Source: a virus. From it: 21,552 bases of DNA. The position numbers and the translations under genes were made by a program. Below are positions 10,304 to 19,682 of this stretch, one piece after another (positions within the stretch are counted from its first letter, which is position 1; each line of letters opens with the position of its first letter). A model generated the notes under the pieces. That model saw nothing but the letters and a program-made list of their open reading frames with translations, had not been told where the DNA came from and made no database searches. The DNA is taken from IMG/VR virus record IMGVR_UViG_3300034374_001506, positions 1 to 21,552 of that record; one strand, given 5' to 3'.

Positions 10304-10526
10304 ATAAGGGGGGCCTTTCCTATATACGCCGCCGGAAGTGGTGGGGTAGAAAAACGCTAAGTCCTTGATATTATTTTAATTTTTACTTCGATTGTCTAGA
10401 CTCTGCGAACGCTTGAGGGTTCTGGAACTGATTTGTTTGTCTGAAATAGTAATACATAGAGAAGTGTGGAGTCCCAAAACCAAAAGCGGGGGGTGGGGGG
10501 CGGTATGGGTCGCGTTCCGGTATTTT

Positions 10527-10543
10527 GTTAGTGCCGCACTAAC
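10527..10543. promoter_or_regulatory. GTTAGTG-CCG-CACTAAC dyad 1
   Basis: This is a perfect seven-base inverted repeat with a 3-base spacer, extended to eight bases by flanking T and A. It is the leftmost copy of the family, in the divergent region about 150 bases upstream of the first rightward gene. Confidence 0.85.
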
Positions 10544-10601
10544 ATTTCTTATCAGGCGATGTGATGCGTTGCCATCCGTTATCGTTTGGGCGTTATCCCT
10601 T

Positions 10602-10618
10602 GTTAGTGGCGCACTAAC
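10602..10618. promoter_or_regulatory. GTTAGTG-GCG-CACTAAC dyad 2
   Basis: This is a perfect dyad with a 3-base spacer and eight-base extended arms, 75 bases from dyad 1 and 73 bases upstream of the ATG at 10692. Paired operators in front of the first gene of an arm are a common arrangement for repressor control. Confidence 0.85.
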
Positions 10619-10691
10619 ATGTCATTACTTGGTTATCGGCAAGGCAATAACGCCCCCGATACTTTCAACTGACATGCTAGGAGATTACACC

Positions 10692-11210
10692 ATGTCAAAC
10701 TTTATCTTGAACCCCGAAAACGCAACCGTCATTACCGCAGCCGTCGCGCTTGTTGACAAGGCCGAACGCAAATTGCAGTCAAGTATGCAAGCGCTGCACG
10801 CGGGTAACATGAAGTCGACTGACTTTATCAGCCCCAAGTCCAAATCAGGGGATAGCACGGCATCGCCAGAGCTATTCGACGCGGTCAACGCCGCGATCGT
10901 TGCGGGCTTCACGGTGCGGGTGCAGAAACTACTGGCCACGCCGACCAAAGCGCTGCAAGACGCCGACAAGGCCGACAAGCGCTATTGGCAACAGCAGATC
11001 GGCGCGCGACGGAACGACTTTAAGCGCGGCCTTGAAAAGCTGGAAGGCAAGGCGGATGACCGCGCGCCGCAAGCGCCCAAGTCGCCCGAGGATAAGATCC
11101 GGGCCATGATCGAAAGCATCGAAAAGATCGTGCAGAATGCCGAGGGCCTGACATTCGACGCTGCCGACTTCCTGAAAGATCTGCGCGCGCTTAACCGCAA
11201 GATCAAATAA
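10692..11210 (+). CDS. Helical early-region protein, unknown function
   Basis: This 172-residue protein begins MSNFILNPENATVITAAVAL. It is rich in Ala, Lys and Asp with long predicted helices and no cysteine, membrane segment or recognised catalytic motif. A C-terminal segment (KIRAMIESIEKIVQNAEGLT) looks like a coiled coil. AGGAG eight bases before the ATG at 10692 sets the start; the frame is open for 100 codons upstream, but that covers two dyad repeats and has poor coding character. It is the first gene of the rightward arm and is followed by a stable hairpin. I do not recognise a family. Confidence 0.8.
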   Translation: MSNFILNPENATVITAAVALVDKAERKLQSSMQALHAGNMKSTDFISPKSKSGDSTASPELFDAVNAAIVAGFTVRVQKLLATPTKALQDADKADKRYWQQQIGARRNDFKRGLEKLEGKADDRAPQAPKSPEDKIRAMIESIEKIVQNAEGLTFDAADFLKDLRALNRKIK

Positions 11211-11473: not shown

Positions 11474-11504
11474 TGGCCAGCCCGCAAGGGTTGGCCATTT
11501 TTTT
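11474..11504 (+). terminator. Rho-independent terminator after the first rightward unit
   Basis: TGGCCAGCCC, loop GCAA, and GGGTTGGCCA form a ten-base-pair stem with one G-T pair, followed by seven T. It starts six bases after the stop of the 11271 gene, so it should end the transcript that begins before the 10692 gene. Confidence 0.9.
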
Positions 11505-11553
11505 ATGCCCGCTGATCCGATGCCAGTTACCGTCGTATCGCGCCTGCTGCTTT

Positions 11554-11603
11554 GTTAGTGTGACACTAACATTCGAAACCAGTTCTTCGAGTCGCGCCGC
11601 GCC
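11554..11603 (+). repeat. 50-bp direct repeat, copy A (contains dyad 3, 11554-11570)
   Basis: It begins with the dyad GTTAGTG-TGA-CACTAAC, continues ATTCGAAACCAGTTCTTCGAG and ends near GCGCCGCGCC. It has the same length and register as copies B and C, with several substitutions after the dyad. Confidence 0.85.
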
Positions 11604-11669
11604 CCGCGTGTCAACACATGACAGGATAATAAAGAACATTATGGCCGCTGTAACCTCTCACCATTTATT

Positions 11670-11719
11670 GTTAGTGATACACTAACATTTGATACCAGTT
11701 CTTAGAGTTGCGCAGCGCC
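11670..11719 (+). repeat. 50-bp direct repeat, copy B (contains dyad 4, 11670-11686)
   Basis: It begins with GTTAGTG-ATA-CACTAAC, then ATTTGATACCAGTTCTTAG and a GCGCAGCGCC end. It starts 116 bases after copy A. Its last bases form the -35 box of a predicted promoter. Confidence 0.88.
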
Positions 11720-11736
11720 TCACGCTGTGCTATGGT
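11708..11736 (+). promoter_or_regulatory. Predicted sigma-70 promoter inside the control region
   Basis: TTGCGC (11708-11713), exactly 17 bases, then TATGGT (11731-11736). Four of six -35 and four of six -10 positions match the consensus. Initiation near 11743 would give only about 47 bases before the terminator ending at 11790. Confidence 0.5.
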
Positions 11737-11764
11737 GGCTACACATTGCTCGACACTGCCTACT

Positions 11765-11790
11765 GCCCCGCGATAAGCGGGGCTTTTTTT
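11765..11790 (+). terminator. Rho-independent terminator in the control region
   Basis: GCCCCGC, loop GATAA, and GCGGGGC, directly followed by seven T. It abuts dyad 5. No gene ends nearby, so it must terminate either a short RNA or read-through from the left. Confidence 0.9.
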
Positions 11791-11840
11791 GTTAGTGTTC
11801 CACTAACATTTGATACCAGTTCTTAGAGAAGCATAGCGCC
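11791..11840 (+). repeat. 50-bp direct repeat, copy C (contains dyad 5, 11791-11807)
   Basis: It begins with GTTAGTG-TTC-CACTAAC immediately after the terminator T tract, continues ATTTGATACCAGTTCTTAG as in copy B and ends GCATAGCGCC. It starts 121 bases after copy B. Confidence 0.88.
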
Positions 11841-11852
11841 TGACAGTTTACT

Positions 11853-11869
11853 GTTAGTGACGCACTAAC
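11853..11869. promoter_or_regulatory. GTTAGTG-ACG-CACTAAC dyad 6
   Basis: This is a perfect dyad with extended eight-base arms, 12 bases before the first long AATGTTC repeat. It lacks the 50-bp repeat tail seen in copies A to C. Confidence 0.85.
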
Positions 11870-11880
11870 ACCGATTTCAG

Positions 11881-11920
11881 CTAAGTCATTGAAAACAAAG
11901 TAATGTTCCAAATGTTCGCA
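11881..11920 (+). repeat. 40-bp iteron-type repeat, forward copy 1
   Basis: It runs CTAAGTCATTGAAAACAAAG followed by two AATGTTC motifs nine bases apart. It differs from copy 2 at one position. Confidence 0.88.
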
Positions 11921-11942
11921 AATTTTTGGCTAATGTTCTGGC

Positions 11943-11982
11943 CTAAGTCATTGAAAACACAGTAATGTTCCAAATGTTCGCA
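11943..11982 (+). repeat. 40-bp iteron-type repeat, forward copy 2
   Basis: It has the same 40 bases as copy 1 with one substitution and starts 62 bases later. A single extra AATGTTC (11932-11938) lies between the copies. Confidence 0.88.
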
Positions 11983-12094
11983 CTTTTTAAGTATATATCC
12001 AGATTTCTGGCAGGCCCCTTTTTGCAGGGTCAGACCCCCGCAAGCCCCCCTCTCAGAAGCTCTCACCACCAAATATACATATATATCTATTTTA

Positions 12095-12130
12095 GGAACA
12101 TTAGAACATTACTGCAATTTCAATGACTTA
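12095..12130 (-). repeat. Iteron-type repeat, inverted copy 3
   Basis: On the minus strand it reproduces the forward copies with a one-base gap: two GAACATT motifs eight bases apart, ACTGCAATTT, then CAATGACTTA. It faces copies 1 and 2 across about 110 bases that include an AT-rich stretch at 12071-12094. Confidence 0.85.
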
Positions 12131-12144
12131 CAACGACACCTGTT

Positions 12145-12177
12145 AGAACATTCTGGAACATTATCACGGATGTCATT
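12145..12177 (-). repeat. Iteron-type repeat, inverted degenerate copy 4
   Basis: Two GAACATT motifs ten bases apart are followed by a diverged part ending GTCATT. It is in the same orientation as copy 3, just upstream of the predicted promoter at 12200. Confidence 0.7.
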
Positions 12178-12199
12178 AAACACCAGCCCTTACCATCAT

Positions 12200-12228
12200 T
12201 TGACATAGGATGACACTTGTGGTATTCT
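12200..12228 (+). promoter_or_regulatory. Near-consensus sigma-70 promoter for the right-arm operon
   Basis: A perfect TTGACA (12200-12205), a 17-base spacer and TATTCT (12223-12228). Transcription would start near 12235, giving an 80-base leader before the ATG at 12315 with a GTTAGTG dyad in it. It is the strongest promoter I can see in the window and is placed to drive the long co-directional gene set. Confidence 0.8.
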
Positions 12229-12282
12229 GGAAGAACAATAACAAAAAACATCACTTACAACCAACCACCACCCCGCGACACT

Positions 12283-12299
12283 GTTAGTGACGCACTAAC
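12283..12299. promoter_or_regulatory. GTTAGTG-ACG-CACTAAC dyad 7, in leader of the right-arm operon
   Basis: This perfect dyad is about 50 bases downstream of the predicted start site and immediately before the AAAGGG ribosome binding site of the 12315 gene. A bound protein could block elongation, or the RNA hairpin could affect translation. Confidence 0.85.
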
Positions 12300-12314
12300 A
12301 AAGGGCACCATGCA

Positions 12315-12545
12315 ATGACAAAAGACGAGTTACGCAAGTTTTGCGCCATGCACTACCGCGCTGCCGTAGCCCGAGAGGCACAAGGCAAGTTCTTCATCCT
12401 GCGCGCCAAGGCAGGCATAAAAACGGCACCCCGTGCCAAGCACGACGAGTGGCGCAAAGACGAAGCCGAACCCCGCACCTTCGGTGCATACCACAAGACC
12501 AATCCGCACACCCGCAAGCGGTGGTCCTACACCGAGAACAAATGA
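12315..12545 (+). CDS. Small basic protein, unknown function
   Basis: This 76-residue, Lys/Arg-rich protein begins MTKDELRKFCAMHYRAAVAR. Middle and C-terminal parts contain KTAPRAKHDEWRKDEAEPRT and a WSYTENK end. AAGGG about ten bases upstream supports the ATG at 12315. It is the first gene after the predicted TTGACA promoter. The charge suggests nucleic-acid contact. No known domain is recognised. An overlapping frame from 12341 is only the upstream extension of the next gene. Confidence 0.72.
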   Translation: MTKDELRKFCAMHYRAAVAREAQGKFFILRAKAGIKTAPRAKHDEWRKDEAEPRTFGAYHKTNPHTRKRWSYTENK

Positions 12546-12812: not shown

Positions 12813-13727
12813 ATGAACATGCAAACCACAACCACACCAGAAACCGCGGCACCCGCCGCTCACGCACCCTCAATCGCTTCATCATCCATGCTGTGCGAAC
12901 TCAGCATCAGCACATGGACTGGCCGCAAGCTAGACAAACGTGCGTCAAAAGACGTTACCCTGCAGAACCACGCAGCATCAGGTGTGGCGAACGTGAACAA
13001 GAAGCTGCTCGGCGACTGCGCCGAACTGATCGCGCTACAGAAATTCACGGCGAACTCACGCAACATACACTACGGCATGACAATGCCATGGTCAGACACG
13101 GGGCTGCGCCTGCTGCCTACGGCACAGTATTTCAAATATCACCAAGCCATGACGGACATACAGGGGGAATTTAACAGACTAGTCGACGCCTTCCTCGACG
13201 CCTACGACTGGGAGATCATGCAAGCACAAGCCAAGCTAGGCGACCTGTTCATACGCGACGACTACCCGTCGTTGGAATCTTTAAAAAATAAGTTCCGCTT
13301 CCGCTTGACCTATATCCCACTGCCAGACGCAGGGGACTTCCGTATCGACATCGGCAACGAAGCCGCAGAGGAGATCAAGACACACTACAAAACTTATTAT
13401 ACCACGCAACTCAACCAAGCCATGAACGACGTGTGGCAACGGACATACGACGCTCTGTCGCGCATGTCAGAGCGTCTGGACTATGCCGACCACGAGAAGA
13501 AGAAAATCTTCCGCGACTCACTGGTCGACAACGTGGCCGAGATGGTCGAGCTGCTACGGGTGTGTAACGTAACAGGTTCTACGCAGATGACTGCAATGGC
13601 TGACAAACTAGACGATGCGCTGCGCGGTGTCACACCAGACGCACTGCGCGAGGACGCATACCTGCGCGCCGAAACAAAACGCACGGTGGACGAGGCGATC
13701 AAGGCGCTACCGTCGTTGGATATGTAA
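12813..13727 (+). CDS. DUF3150-family protein, partner of the AAA+/VWA pair
   Basis: This 304-residue protein has a Thr/Ala/Pro-rich first 30 residues, then CELSISTWTGRKLDKRASKD, which I recognise as the start of the DUF3150 family. A long helical body follows (DAYDWEIMQAQAKLGDLFIR; MSERLDYADHEKKKIFRDSL). DUF3150 genes in phages typically lie beside a MoxR/CobS-like ATPase and a VWA protein, as here. The biochemical role is unknown; it may bridge the ATPase to its target. GGAG lies nine bases before the ATG at 12813. An in-frame GTG at 12783 is rejected because it falls inside dyad 8. No catalytic motif is visible. Confidence 0.85.
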   Translation: MNMQTTTTPETAAPAAHAPSIASSSMLCELSISTWTGRKLDKRASKDVTLQNHAASGVANVNKKLLGDCAELIALQKFTANSRNIHYGMTMPWSDTGLRLLPTAQYFKYHQAMTDIQGEFNRLVDAFLDAYDWEIMQAQAKLGDLFIRDDYPSLESLKNKFRFRLTYIPLPDAGDFRIDIGNEAAEEIKTHYKTYYTTQLNQAMNDVWQRTYDALSRMSERLDYADHEKKKIFRDSLVDNVAEMVELLRVCNVTGSTQMTAMADKLDDALRGVTPDALREDAYLRAETKRTVDEAIKALPSLDM

Positions 13728-13731
13728 ACTT

Positions 13732-13749
13732 GTTAGTGCCGCCACTAAC
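13732..13749. promoter_or_regulatory. GTTAGTG-CCGC-CACTAAC dyad 9 (4-base spacer)
   Basis: This perfect dyad occupies the gap between the DUF3150 gene and the 13763 gene and directly abuts the AAGGAG ribosome binding site. The position relative to the next gene is nearly the same as for dyads 7 and 8. Confidence 0.85.
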
Positions 13750-13762
13750 AAAGGAGAAGAAT

Positions 13763-14029
13763 ATGAATGACACAGAGGAACAACTTACCCACACGGAAGA
13801 AGCCGAGGCAGAGGCGTTCGTGCGGATGGTTGCGAAGAACCTACCGAATGTAATGGACGATGAGCAAGTCCTCAAACTATGCGCGATACTCATCACATCA
13901 TACGCTACCTCAGATACCGCGATAAACTGGCTCAAGTCATTGACTGTATTGTTGGCGCAATTCTACGCCGACCAAGTGGATGGGCGGTGCAACTGTGAGC
14001 ACTGCCGCGCCAAACGTAACATGCACTAA
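13763..14029 (+). CDS. Small acidic protein with a C-terminal Cys/His cluster
   Basis: This 88-residue protein begins MNDTEEQLTHTEEAEAEAFV. The first third is acidic and the middle helical (VLKLCAILITSYATSDTAIN). The end carries CNCEHCRAKRNMH, a CxCxxC plus His cluster that could bind one zinc ion. It lies between DUF3150 and the ATPase in the same transcript with an AAGGAG site seven bases upstream. Its TAA stop is supplied by a CACTAAC half-dyad (14024-14030). The function is unknown. Conserved placement inside the DUF3150-ATPase-VWA block would be informative. Confidence 0.78.
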   Translation: MNDTEEQLTHTEEAEAEAFVRMVAKNLPNVMDDEQVLKLCAILITSYATSDTAINWLKSLTVLLAQFYADQVDGRCNCEHCRAKRNMH

Positions 14030-14030
14030 C
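14024..14030. promoter_or_regulatory. CACTAAC half-dyad at a gene end
   Basis: Only the right arm of the dyad is present; the expected left arm position reads ACGTAAC. It sits at the same place relative to the next ribosome binding site as the complete dyads, so it may be a decayed copy, but a seven-base match can also occur by chance. Confidence 0.4.
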
Positions 14031-14048
14031 AAACCAAGGAGAACTACA

Positions 14049-15140
14049 ATGAGCAATGCACAACAAATGTATCAACTGTCACTCGACCAGATCGCAGCAC
14101 TAATCAAGGCAGGCGGGCACGAGCGCACCACACTGGTGCAGGGTCACATGGGCACAGGTAAGAGTAGTTTGTTGGGAGCGTTATCCCGCGAACTACCCAA
14201 CCACACGCCATGCTATTTCGACTGCACCACGAAGGACTTGGGCGACATCACGATACCCAATATCAACACAACAAACCCCACGCCGTTCGTCACATACGCC
14301 ACCAACGAAGAACTAGGTGCACACATCAACAGCCCGATCATCCTGATGGTGGACGAGTATGGCAAGGCGAACCCGTCGGTGAAGCTAGCACTGCTGCGGC
14401 TGATGCTCGAACGCAAGATAGGTAGCTACACACTACACCCTGACAGCATAATCTTTGCCACCACAAACCTTGGTGCCGAGGGCGTAGGTGACTTGTTGCC
14501 ACCCCATGCACGCAACCGCATCACCGTAGTCACAGCGCGCAAGCCAAGCAACATGGAGTGGATCGAGTGGGGCATCAACAACGAGATCGACCACACCTTG
14601 CTAGGTTGGTGTAAGGACAATCCGCAGCTGTTCTTGTCATTCGAGGACGTGCGCGACCCAGAGGAGAACCCGTATATCTATCATCCCAAGGCACAACGTG
14701 CGGCGTTCGTCACACCACGTTCACTCGAAGCGGCATCGGACTGGCTCAAGCAGCGTGACAAGTTTGACGATCAGACACTGACCGCAGCACTGATGGGCAC
14801 AATCGGCGACCGGGGTGCAATGGACCTGATGGCGTTCGTCAAGCTAGCCGACCAACTACCTAGCCTACAATCAATCAAGGACGATCCGCGCAATGCCAAG
14901 GTGCCAGACAGTGCCGCAGCCGTTTGCATGGTGGTGTATCGGACGCTCGCATCACTGGAGAAAGACTGGCTCGACGCATGGATGGACTACATGGTGCGCC
15001 TCGACAAAGAAGCACAGGGTATGTTCGCCAACGGTGTGCGCGCACCCAAGTATTCCAAGCAAGCCATGGTCATGACGAACAAGAAGTTCACCAAGTGGGC
15101 CATGGATAACAATTACTTGTTTGCGGCGGATAAACACTAA
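14049..15140 (+). CDS. MoxR/CobS-like AAA+ ATPase
   Basis: This 363-residue ATPase has Walker A GHMGTGKSS at residues 32-40, Walker B ILMVDEYGKA around 98-107 (Asp102, Glu103) and a sensor 1 region IIFATTNLGAEGV ending in Asn140, followed by PPHARNRI with candidate arginine-finger residues. This layout is that of MoxR-type ATPases and of proteins labelled CobS in marine phages. Such ATPases usually act as hexamers that remodel a target with a VWA-domain partner, here encoded at 15774. The C-terminal third is helical. AAGGAG precedes the ATG at 14049. No N-terminal targeting signal is visible. The substrate is unknown, and true cobalt chelation is not supported because no CobN is in view. Confidence 0.9.
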   Translation: MSNAQQMYQLSLDQIAALIKAGGHERTTLVQGHMGTGKSSLLGALSRELPNHTPCYFDCTTKDLGDITIPNINTTNPTPFVTYATNEELGAHINSPIILMVDEYGKANPSVKLALLRLMLERKIGSYTLHPDSIIFATTNLGAEGVGDLLPPHARNRITVVTARKPSNMEWIEWGINNEIDHTLLGWCKDNPQLFLSFEDVRDPEENPYIYHPKAQRAAFVTPRSLEAASDWLKQRDKFDDQTLTAALMGTIGDRGAMDLMAFVKLADQLPSLQSIKDDPRNAKVPDSAAAVCMVVYRTLASLEKDWLDAWMDYMVRLDKEAQGMFANGVRAPKYSKQAMVMTNKKFTKWAMDNNYLFAADKH

Positions 15141-15152
15141 GGAGAAAGACCA

Positions 15153-15323
15153 ATGACTAAAACTTATTACGTCACAGTAGAGGGCATCGTCGAGCGGGTG
15201 TTCCGCATAGACGCAGAGAATCCACACCAAGCAGGGGAGTGGGCGAAAGCCGACTTCAAAGCCGAGCTGCGCACCGACGTGGCTCAAGTCATCAAGGTAA
15301 ACAAGGAGAAAACCAATGACTAA
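15153..15323 (+). CDS. 56-residue small protein, unknown function
   Basis: The protein begins MTKTYYVTVEGIVERVFRID and ends DVAQVIKVNKEKTND. The alternating hydrophobic residues of the first half suggest a beta hairpin, followed by a helix with GEWAKADFKAEL. AAGGAG lies upstream at good spacing, and its end overlaps the next start by eight bases. The sequence around its own start is repeated at the start of the next gene. No family is recognised. It resembles tiny phage proteins of the YxVxVEG type. Confidence 0.7.
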   Translation: MTKTYYVTVEGIVERVFRIDAENPHQAGEWAKADFKAELRTDVAQVIKVNKEKTND

Positions 15324-15606
15324 ACAAACCAAACGGACCGCGCGTCGGTGGACCGCAGAAGAAACCGACACACTGCGCACAATGTATCACGCAGGGATAC
15401 GTCACAAGGAGATCGCACGGATAATGAACCGTTCAGTCGGTGCAGTGCAGCAACGGGCACACGCAGAGGGGCTGACCACAGACAGTGTCCGCAGGCGGTA
15501 TGTTAGTGAGCCACTAACAACTTACGACGAGATAGAGGACGCCAACGAAATTTCGTTGGACATAGCACCAAACAAACCATGGTGGAGAAGGGTGTTGGGC
15601 CTATGA
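15316..15606 (+). CDS. Myb/SANT-like DNA-binding protein
   Basis: This 96-residue protein begins MTKQTKRTARRWTAEETDTL. Residues 11-55 form a Myb/SANT-type three-helix unit: RRWTAEETDTLRTMYHAGIR, then HKEIARIMNRS and a recognition-helix segment VGAVQQRAHAEGL, as in GcrA/Myb-like phage regulators. The tail is acidic and ends WWRRVLGL. A GTTAGTG dyad (15502-15518) lies inside the gene over codons for VSEPLT, so self-regulation is an attractive possibility. AAGGAG precedes the ATG, and the stop overlaps the next start as ATGA. It could be the regulator of the right arm, but that is inference. Confidence 0.82.
   Translation: MTKQTKRTARRWTAEETDTLRTMYHAGIRHKEIARIMNRSVGAVQQRAHAEGLTTDSVRRRYVSEPLTTYDEIEDANEISLDIAPNKPWWRRVLGL
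15502..15518. promoter_or_regulatory. GTTAGTG-AGC-CACTAAC dyad 10, inside the Myb/SANT gene
   Basis: This perfect dyad with extended eight-base arms lies within coding sequence, read in a frame that avoids both embedded stop triplets. Preservation of all arm bases inside a gene suggests selection on the DNA or RNA sequence. Confidence 0.85.
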
Positions 15607-15770
15607 GACTTGGAACATTACACTACGACATGCGCAAGGAAGAAGGCGTAGTCAGGTTAGAGGGGCTACCACCAGACGTGGTGTCACTCGACACACTACA
15701 AGATTGGATAGGTCAACTGACCGACGAGTATAACAGGATGCTAGAAGAAGTATTCCCAAAGGAGAACTGA
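15603..15770 (+). CDS. 55-residue acidic protein, unknown function
   Basis: It begins MRLGTLHYDMRKEEGVVRLE and ends EYNRMLEEVFPKEN. A short beta-rich start is followed by a helix with LQDWIGQLTDEYNR. The ATG overlaps the TGA of the Myb/SANT gene, so translation is probably coupled. An in-frame GTG-type start eight codons upstream is possible but unnecessary. It lies directly in front of the VWA gene with a three-base gap. No family is recognised. Confidence 0.72.
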   Translation: MRLGTLHYDMRKEEGVVRLEGLPPDVVSLDTLQDWIGQLTDEYNRMLEEVFPKEN

Positions 15771-15773
15771 GCA

Positions 15774-16997
15774 ATGCTAAATCTAGGTAAACAACTCACA
15801 CCAGAGCAACGGGTGCAGAAGGCCGTGATCGACATCATGGCGAAGGAACGCTACCGCGCTTTGGGTGGTGTGCTGATGATCGGTGAGCGCAGGGTCGAGA
15901 CAGACCCTGCCAAATGCCCCACTGCATACACGAACGGCAAGGACGAGGTGTATGGCGCGGACTTCATCGCCGACTTGAATGACCGACAGCTACGCTTCCT
16001 GATCTTGCACGAGGTGTATCACAAACTCTATCGCCACCTGACAACGTGGAAGCACTTGTATGACCAAAACCCGCAACTAGCCAACATGGCGTGTGACTAC
16101 GTGATTAACATCAAGCTCGCCGACGACAACGAGCAAGACAAGTTCGCCACTATGGATGGCAAGCTAGAGGTTGGCTGTCTTTCTACCAAGTATCGTGGGT
16201 GGGACAGCGCGCAGGTGTATTACGATCTAAAGCAGGGTAACAACTCAGGACAAAGTGATGGACAGAGTATGCCAAATGGCAAACCTAGCGGAGGGTTTGA
16301 CGAGCATGGCTGGGACGAAGCCGACGACATGACCGCAGAGGAGCAGCGCGAGCTGGCCCGTGAGATCGACGAAGCCATACGACAGGGTGCACTGGTCGCA
16401 GGCAAGACGGGATCGGGTGGTGATCGTGACCTCGTTGATCTGTTGCAGCCGCAAGTCGATTGGCGTGAGGTGCTGCGTGAGTTTGTCCAGAACACATGCG
16501 CAGGCAGTGACTACTCGACATGGCGTAGACCGAACCGTCGCTACATCGGCGCGGGTGTGTATATGCCGAGCGGCATCAGCGAACAGATCGGCGAGATCGT
16601 CGTGGCCATTGACACGTCAGGCAGTATTGGTGCGCGTGAACTTGGCGCCTTCCTAGCCGAAATCAAATCGGTGGCAGACACGGTGCACCCCGAAGCTATC
16701 CGCATCCTGTATTGGGACACCGAGGTGTGTGGTGACGAGCGGTATGTGGGCGACGAGGCCGACAACATCGTGCAGTCTACCAAGCCCAAGGGTGGCGGGG
16801 GCACCGACGTGCGCTGCGTGCCGCAGTATATCCAAGACAACCAGATCAAGGCGCAGGCTGTGATCGTGCTGACCGATGGCTACCTCTACGGTGGTTGGGG
16901 TGAGTGGCATCACCCCGTGCTGTGGACTGTGTTGGACAACAAGAACGCACAGCCCGACGTGGGCAAGACGGTGCATATTAAATCGAGGGACATGTGA
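15774..16997 (+). CDS. HExxH metallopeptidase-like plus VWA domain protein (DUF2201/CobT-like)
   Basis: This 407-residue protein has two parts. Residues 1-150 carry HEVYHKLYRH (His79, Glu80, His83), a zinc-protease signature, followed by ANMACDYVINIKL, a combination typical of DUF2201 putative metallopeptidases. Residues 150-230 form a Gly/Asp-rich linker and acidic helix. Residues 270-407 form a VWA domain with the metal-ion adhesion site DTSGS (280-284), GGGTD (Thr344) and LTDGY (Asp368). VWA proteins pair with MoxR-type ATPases, and this gene follows one. The complex may bind or cleave a protein target. AAAGGAG precedes the ATG. Whether the HExxH site is active cannot be told. Confidence 0.9.
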   Translation: MLNLGKQLTPEQRVQKAVIDIMAKERYRALGGVLMIGERRVETDPAKCPTAYTNGKDEVYGADFIADLNDRQLRFLILHEVYHKLYRHLTTWKHLYDQNPQLANMACDYVINIKLADDNEQDKFATMDGKLEVGCLSTKYRGWDSAQVYYDLKQGNNSGQSDGQSMPNGKPSGGFDEHGWDEADDMTAEEQRELAREIDEAIRQGALVAGKTGSGGDRDLVDLLQPQVDWREVLREFVQNTCAGSDYSTWRRPNRRYIGAGVYMPSGISEQIGEIVVAIDTSGSIGARELGAFLAEIKSVADTVHPEAIRILYWDTEVCGDERYVGDEADNIVQSTKPKGGGGTDVRCVPQYIQDNQIKAQAVIVLTDGYLYGGWGEWHHPVLWTVLDNKNAQPDVGKTVHIKSRDM

Positions 16998-17404
16998 TGG
17001 GATACAGAAGCGACGTGCTGATCGCCGTGGTGTTCAAGGACAAGGAGCAACGTGACGAGGTGTGGGCCGTGTATTGCATGGACCCACGGGTGCAGGAGCA
17101 CAACTTGGCAGAGACGTGGAAAACCTACGACAAGGGAGAATACCCTGTGCTGTATTATGAGGGGGACTATGTGAAGTGGTATGAAAGCTACGAGGACGTG
17201 CAGGGTGTCGAGCACCTGATCGAGGTGGCGTCTACCTTCGCACAGGAACGTGGCCACCCATACGCCGCTATCAACTACCGTGTAGGGGAGGAACTCAACG
17301 ACATCGAAACAACTGAACGGGAGGCTGACCCCACTGGGGAGATGCTAAGTTTTCTATTCGAGATGTGCGGCATCCGCCGCGAACTTACGCACAACTTCGG
17401 TTAG
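16997..17404 (+). CDS. Conserved MGYRSDV-type phage protein, unknown function
   Basis: This 135-residue protein begins MGYRSDVLIAVVFKDKEQRD. The MGYRSDV start is one I recall from many small phage proteins without function. The body is acidic, with YYEGDYVKWYESYEDVQGVE and YAAINYRVGEE. The predicted fold alternates strands and helices. Its ATG overlaps the TGA of the VWA gene (TGATG), so it is translationally coupled to it and may belong to the same module. AGGGA lies upstream. Its TAG stop falls inside dyad 11. Confidence 0.82.
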   Translation: MGYRSDVLIAVVFKDKEQRDEVWAVYCMDPRVQEHNLAETWKTYDKGEYPVLYYEGDYVKWYESYEDVQGVEHLIEVASTFAQERGHPYAAINYRVGEELNDIETTEREADPTGEMLSFLFEMCGIRRELTHNFG

Positions 17405-19315: not shown

Positions 19316-19682
19316 AGAAGATTGGCTCGACGCAGAGGGCATGAAGTTCCTCTACTGGCGTGACCGCATCGAAGCAGATGGGTGGCGTCGGAGCACTAGG
19401 ACTAGGGCGTATTGGGTGGATGATACACAAGATATACCACCTGATGACAACATATACCGCATACACATAGCCCCTGATACTGGATACGTCAAAGTAGCGT
19501 GTATTGGTATGGAAAAAGTTGACGCGATAGTAGATGGCAACTATGATGGGACACATACACTACCAGACTGGATACAGGAACGACTCGCCGTGCTACGCAT
19601 GATGAGTGCCAAACCCCCGACAGAGATCGTCGAGGGAGTGGGACGTCGCATCAACGAAGATACCTACTGGGTGTTTTGTTAG
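19302..19682 (+). CDS. Uncharacterised Trp/Asp-rich phage protein
   Basis: This 126-residue protein begins MWLGEEDWLDAEGMKFLYWR. The first half is rich in Trp and charged residues (IEADGWRRSTRTRAYWVDDT). A middle beta region (YRIHIAPDTGYVKVACIGME) is followed by LPDWIQERLAVLRMM. GGAGGAGG lies about 13 bases before the ATG, inside the preceding gene. Its TAG stop lies within dyad 12. No known domain is recognised and no metal or nuclease motif is evident. Confidence 0.78.
   Translation: MWLGEEDWLDAEGMKFLYWRDRIEADGWRRSTRTRAYWVDDTQDIPPDDNIYRIHIAPDTGYVKVACIGMEKVDAIVDGNYDGTHTLPDWIQERLAVLRMMSAKPPTEIVEGVGRRINEDTYWVFC

Follow-up and report, generated by a model that had tools for sequence, protein, structure and literature searches.

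What is the function of a cluster of short repeats, arranged in two opposing orientations around an AT-rich segment, at positions 11881-12177 of the DNA considered here? The stretch analysed, to which we refer as the window, is 21,552 nucleotides long and comes from an uncultured water-borne bacterial virus, a podovirus-like phage of ~60 kb. The window is a tailed-phage fragment with its late arm (terminase, portal, capsid) leftward and its early arm rightward; its near-complete relatives have genomes of ~60-62 kb, and among cultured phages those closest in terminase sequence, at 41-49% identity, are Pelagibacter HTVC023P and HTVC027P, phage DSL-LC04 and Pag-Yong1. We found no published replication origin for this phage family, and the consulted part of a paper on related, HTVC023P-type genomes (PMC9599517) discusses none. 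An initial annotation proposed that the locus is a replication origin and allowed that it might be an operator array instead. We consider that it is an origin, with a probability of roughly 0.8, and the features that carry this reading are mirrored and helically phased iterons, IHF-type sites, a genome-wide stability minimum and a concerted change of all iterons, all kept across the family.

The repeat unit, AATGTTC, is the top-clustered among all 7-mers of the window. It occurs 11 times on the two strands, compared to 2.6 expected (sd 1.5, maximum 6 in 100 shuffles), and nine of these copies fall within the 261 bp of 11902-12162, giving a density peak of nine per 300 bp against no more than three in 300 dinucleotide shuffles. 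Counting the copies in order gave five forward followed by four reverse, as annotated initially, and they form two blocks:

11902-11979, forward strand: forward iteron block, AATGTTC at 11902, 11911, 11932, 11964 and 11973; kept as a forward block in relatives.
12096-12162, reverse strand: reverse iteron block, GAACATT at 12096, 12104, 12146 and 12156; kept as a reverse block in relatives.

The forward iterons sit within two near-identical 46-nt direct repeats (11881-11926 and 11943-11988, 93% identity), the first 40 nt of which differ at one base, in agreement with the pair of 40-bp repeats with a single mismatch described before. Of the two inverted copies placed at 12095 and 12145 in that description, the first corresponds to a true 30-nt copy (12101-12130, 87%), while at 12145 there is only an AATGTTC pair without the remainder of the repeat. 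The whole array is non-coding DNA, located downstream of two terminator-like hairpins and upstream of a good sigma-70-type promoter. Outside the array there are two further copies, both reverse. The lone GAACATT at 11634, upstream of the array, had been pointed out and is indeed present, also at the same place in three relatives (L015, L019 and L022); the isolated copy at 15613, far from the array, is probably there by chance.

The arrangement is kept in relatives, each genome having one array, at a single clustered locus. Across 29 distinct homologous loci, 358 of 383 pairs have the forward copy ahead of the reverse one; the loci are related, and the pairs are not independent of each other. 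Spacings between like-oriented iterons in relatives fall at 8-12, 19-22, 31-32, 42-43 and 52-55, with almost none at half turns, and the phasing gives a Rayleigh statistic of 118 near 10.5 bp; cooperative binding to iterons is known to require helical phase (PMC4980987). Five contigs that were found via their primase-helicase, and not via terminase, show a forward pair followed by a reverse pair ~250-330 bp on. In other subclades every iteron copy has changed in concert, to ATGTTCC or to AAGTTCC, the geometry being retained (with AAGTTCC, five forward and four reverse copies).

Between the two blocks lies an AT-rich core, which had been noted before and turns out to hold the stability minimum of the window, and the blocks are accompanied by sites resembling those of the host protein IHF:

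12071-12102, no strand assigned: AT-rich core, putative DNA unwinding element; the window's least stable 30 bp start at 12073.
11882-11894, forward strand: IHF-type site with one mismatch to WATCAANNNNTTR, 20 bp ahead of the iteron at 11902.
11944-11956, forward strand: IHF-type site with one mismatch to WATCAANNNNTTR, 20 bp ahead of the iteron at 11964.
12118-12130, reverse strand: IHF-type site with one mismatch to WATCAANNNNTTR, 20 bp from the reverse iteron at 12104.

Each of the four near-complete relatives tested (~60 kb) has its genome-wide stability minimum over 30 bp in the homologous region. Over the relatives, the IHF consensus WATCAANNNNTTR has 24 exact matches compared to 0.9 expected, and the distance between IHF-type site and iteron is fixed at 20 bp on both sides of the array. 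Because all three sites in the window carry one mismatch, we infer, rather than observe, that IHF would bind them, and the box could be an extension of the iteron instead. IHF assists several iteron origins (PMC4980987). The window has no match to the DnaA box TTWTNCACA; such an absence fits a self-loading initiator, yet we treat it as neutral evidence.

GC skew, proposed initially as a check of the origin, does not discriminate. The switch in skew occurs where genes change orientation, 14-20 kb from the array, and not at the far point of the genome; because it tracks gene direction, it speaks neither for nor against an origin, and we dropped it as evidence.

Let us next consider regulation. 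The array had been said to lie directly upstream of a strong promoter, and such a promoter is there. In addition, the window contains nine copies of a 19-bp palindrome, TGTTAGTG-N3-CACTAACA, absent from the initial annotation, starting at 10526, 10601, 11553, 11669, 11790, 11852, 12282, 15501 and 19677, with a one-mismatch copy at 17399; five of the nine fall within 11553-12300. The surroundings of the array are as follows:

10526-10619, no strand assigned: two palindromes (10526 and 10601) ahead of the gene for a 172-aa protein.
10692-11210, forward strand: conserved all-helical protein of 172 aa, encoded between the gene for the terminase small subunit and the origin region.
11553-11571, no strand assigned: palindrome TGTTAGTG-N3-CACTAACA.
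11669-11687, no strand assigned: palindrome TGTTAGTG-N3-CACTAACA.
11765-11783, forward strand: intrinsic-terminator-like hairpin upstream of the array; another lies at 11474-11497.
11790-11808, no strand assigned: palindrome TGTTAGTG-N3-CACTAACA.
11852-11870, no strand assigned: palindrome TGTTAGTG-N3-CACTAACA.
12200-12228, forward strand: sigma-70-like early promoter, TTGACA-17-TATTCT, 10 of 12 with an extended -10.
12282-12300, no strand assigned: operator-like palindrome TGTTAGTG-ACG-CACTAACA, downstream of the promoter and ahead of the first early gene.
12315-12545, forward strand: first early gene after the promoter, 76 aa, no assigned function.

The early arm starts with a conserved trio at 12816-16997, encoding DUF3150, a MoxR-like ATPase and a VWA metallopeptidase-like protein.

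The palindromes look like a dispersed operator family. Those at 12282 and 17399 stand immediately 5' of the ribosome-binding site and start codon of an early gene, and in near-complete relatives, one-mismatch copies counted, they are confined to the early arm and the surroundings of the origin. Other subclades have palindromes of the TTTAGGGA or TTCGGGCA type in place of TGTTAGTG, and these classes vary independently of the iteron classes: L063 and L076 have iterons in common and differ in their palindromes, whereas L052 and L076 have palindromes in common and differ in their iterons. The simplest reading is therefore that iterons and palindromes are two systems, each bound by a protein of its own.

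These observations bear on the possibility that the iterons serve solely as an operator or activator array, at which a phage transcription regulator would act on the promoter at 12200-12228, with the AT-rich core incidental. The reverse block does end only ~40 bp upstream of the -35 box, and relatives also have a TTGACA promoter of similar kind downstream of their iterons. The forward block, however, is 220-300 bp upstream and in the opposite orientation, and the array occurs once per genome, whereas it is the dispersed palindromes that mark many early genes. In addition, every near-complete genome tested has its stability minimum in this region, and two terminators and non-coding DNA separate the region from the upstream gene. 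We thus regard this explanation as improbable; the operator function suspected initially probably resides mostly in the separate palindrome family, and the reverse iterons might still influence the promoter 40 bp downstream.

The conserved 172-aa protein is a candidate for the palindrome-binding repressor. When pairs of these proteins at equal terminase-small-subunit distance are compared, those of the same TGTTAGTG class score 86-142 bits and those of different class 27-44. This tracking of palindrome class could be due to linkage with the adjacent sites. Searches against the PDB by sequence and by fold gave no convincing match for this protein, and we dropped the notion that it has a known DNA-binding fold. 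A conserved box, GATACCAGTTCTTAGAGTTGCG, is found at 11575, 11691 and 11812, directly 3' of three palindromes, with a terminator after the second, and is possibly a small RNA or attenuator. The repeated box GGTATC/GATACC (element C) was considered as a general partner of the palindromes and rejected, being present at only three of them in the window.

Could the locus instead serve the nearby terminase as a packaging site (pac or cos)? The genes for the small and large terminase subunits start 1.7-2.3 kb away, and many contigs of relatives end between terminase and the array. These ends, however, fall into two wide ranges upstream of the large terminase gene (about 600-950 and 1260-1980 bp away), and at least nine contigs start at element C, as breaks in assembly would. 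The window and several contigs continue through the region without a break, another gene and terminators intervene between array and terminase, and packaging would not need phased iterons, IHF-type sites or a core that is the stability minimum of the genome. This explanation we consider very improbable, and we rejected the clustered contig ends as genome termini, considering that they form two broad groups, many at element C, and that assembly breaks are more likely. Nine contigs (L020, L031, L043, L044, L047, L048, L057, L069 and L070) start at or within a few bases of the GGTATC (or GGCATC) of the box GATACCAGTTCTTAGAGTTGCG, probably reflecting assembly breaks at a repeat.

If the locus is an origin, which protein opens it? 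The early arm of relatives ends in genes for DNA polymerase A, a RecB-like nuclease, an SNF2 helicase and a 940-aa primase-helicase of AEP-DUF927 type. The last of these matches Pfam DUF927 at 1.3e-19, and a profile of 40 such proteins searched against the PDB matched SaPIbov1 Rep (8tch, 8e-19) and SCCmec Cch (5dgk, 1e-13), Cch being a DUF927 protein (PMC7581432). An AlphaFold model (mean pLDDT 82) has the same two structures, 5dgk and 8tch, as its best fold matches; its N-terminal domain matches the AEP domain of S-2L PrimPol, and residues ~814-926 form a predicted alpha/beta domain at the C-terminus, which would fit a winged helix. Because the window fragment stops ahead of the corresponding gene, the presence of the protein in this phage is predicted from its relatives. 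It had been suggested initially that the same repeats be sought beside replication genes in relatives; the array is kept there, but the primase-helicase gene is not beside it, since in one relative (G001) the origin is at ~1-250 and the gene at 19186-22008, ~19 kb apart. We believe, at somewhat better than even odds, that the primase-helicase initiates replication, and by analogy with Rep and Cch it would bind the iterons itself.

Alternatively, another initiator, such as a small phage HTH protein or the 172-aa protein, might open the origin, with the primase-helicase recruited later in a lambda-like manner. The early arm does encode HTH proteins, the primase-helicase is a putative iteron-binding protein, and in the AAGTTCC-type primase-helicase, available from one genome only and hence uninformative on covariation with iteron class, the C-terminal domain is no more diverged than other parts of the protein. 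On the other hand, the 172-aa protein tracks the palindrome class, and the fold class of the primase-helicase is that of proteins that bind iterons themselves. We consider such a division of labour unlikely, though less so than either of the alternatives discussed above, and retain the primase-helicase as the favoured initiator.

Two cultured phages encode the primase-helicase, Pseudomonas phage Rollin, where it is 28% identical, and Rhizobium phage RHph_TM3_14A. Rollin has TATGCAA forward at 260, 282 and 304 and reverse at 528, 537 and 546, palindromes of the form AAAAGGTAG...CTACCTTTT and, at 324, an exact IHF-type site; the stability minimum of its genome (30 bp) is at 550, beside one array and not between the arrays. 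In RHph_TM3_14A, the least stable 30 bp, at 19577, are located between exact IHF-type sites at 19442 and 19760 in DNA very rich in AT, and no exact iteron array was found. The layouts of these two phages are thus similar to that of the window, not identical. A DNA-level search of cultured phages gave no match, and nothing matched in a search of Rfam.

We propose the following scenario. The phage initiator would bind the AATGTTC iterons in the two facing, helically phased arrays, while host IHF or an IHF-like protein would bend the DNA at the boxes that keep a constant 20-bp distance to the iterons. The strained, AT-rich core (about 12071-12102) might then open. The most likely initiator would be a protein encoded by the phage itself, in which an AEP primase is joined to a DUF927 MCM-like helicase; its C-terminal domain is perhaps the counterpart of the end of SaPI Rep and Cch that binds the origin. 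This protein would load itself, perhaps as one hexamer per array, to establish two forks, the direction of which we infer. A separate regulator would bind the dispersed 19-bp palindromes and control early genes, acting also on the promoter next to the origin. Taken as a whole (origin, primase-helicase as the most likely initiator, IHF boxes and separate palindrome regulator), we regard this model as probable, a little less so than the origin assignment by itself.

Several known systems are comparable. The SaPIbov1 origin with Rep and SCCmec Cch also combine multiple short iterons with an MCM-like DUF927 AAA+ helicase initiator, whose C-terminal DNA-binding part has a putative equivalent here. 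Here, in contrast, the helicase is fused to an AEP primase in a ~60-kb phage and not a satellite, the iterons are split into two arrays that face each other and have IHF-type boxes at a fixed spacing, and the gene of relatives is ~19 kb from the origin, whereas the SaPI origin immediately follows rep. Phage P4 alpha likewise joins primase and helicase in one initiating protein, and P4 ori has iterons with an AT-rich region; its helicase, however, probably belongs to another family than the one here, and P4 additionally needs the distant crr element. Iteron plasmid origins (RK2, pSC101, R6K) share the phased iterons, the AT-rich unwinding element and, in several cases, IHF, but in these plasmids most iterons are direct repeats located on a single side, and host DnaB is loaded; here there is no DnaA box. 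In phage lambda and Stx phage oriL, O protein iterons also lie beside an AT-rich region; the lambda iterons are inside gene O, and host DnaB is loaded through P, whereas the region here is non-coding and mirrored. As for the palindromes, the stoperators of mycobacteriophages L5 and Bxb1 are similarly many copies of a regulator site spread over the genome; the sites here differ in being palindromic and limited to the early arm and the origin surroundings, and their regulator is putative.

This study arrives at a precise candidate origin and a candidate initiator, set apart from the early-gene operators, and the finding transfers to two cultured phages, with Pseudomonas and Rhizobium as hosts, so that initiators loading themselves, as in staphylococcal islands, can be studied directly in ordinary phages. 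More tentatively, and with the odds somewhat against it, we suggest that a family of water-borne phages may use a mirror-symmetric origin at which an AEP-fused MCM-like helicase loads itself, one hexamer per array with an IHF spacer, for bidirectional replication. If true, this would be a single-protein, loader-free phage parallel of double-hexamer loading at archaeal and eukaryotic origins.
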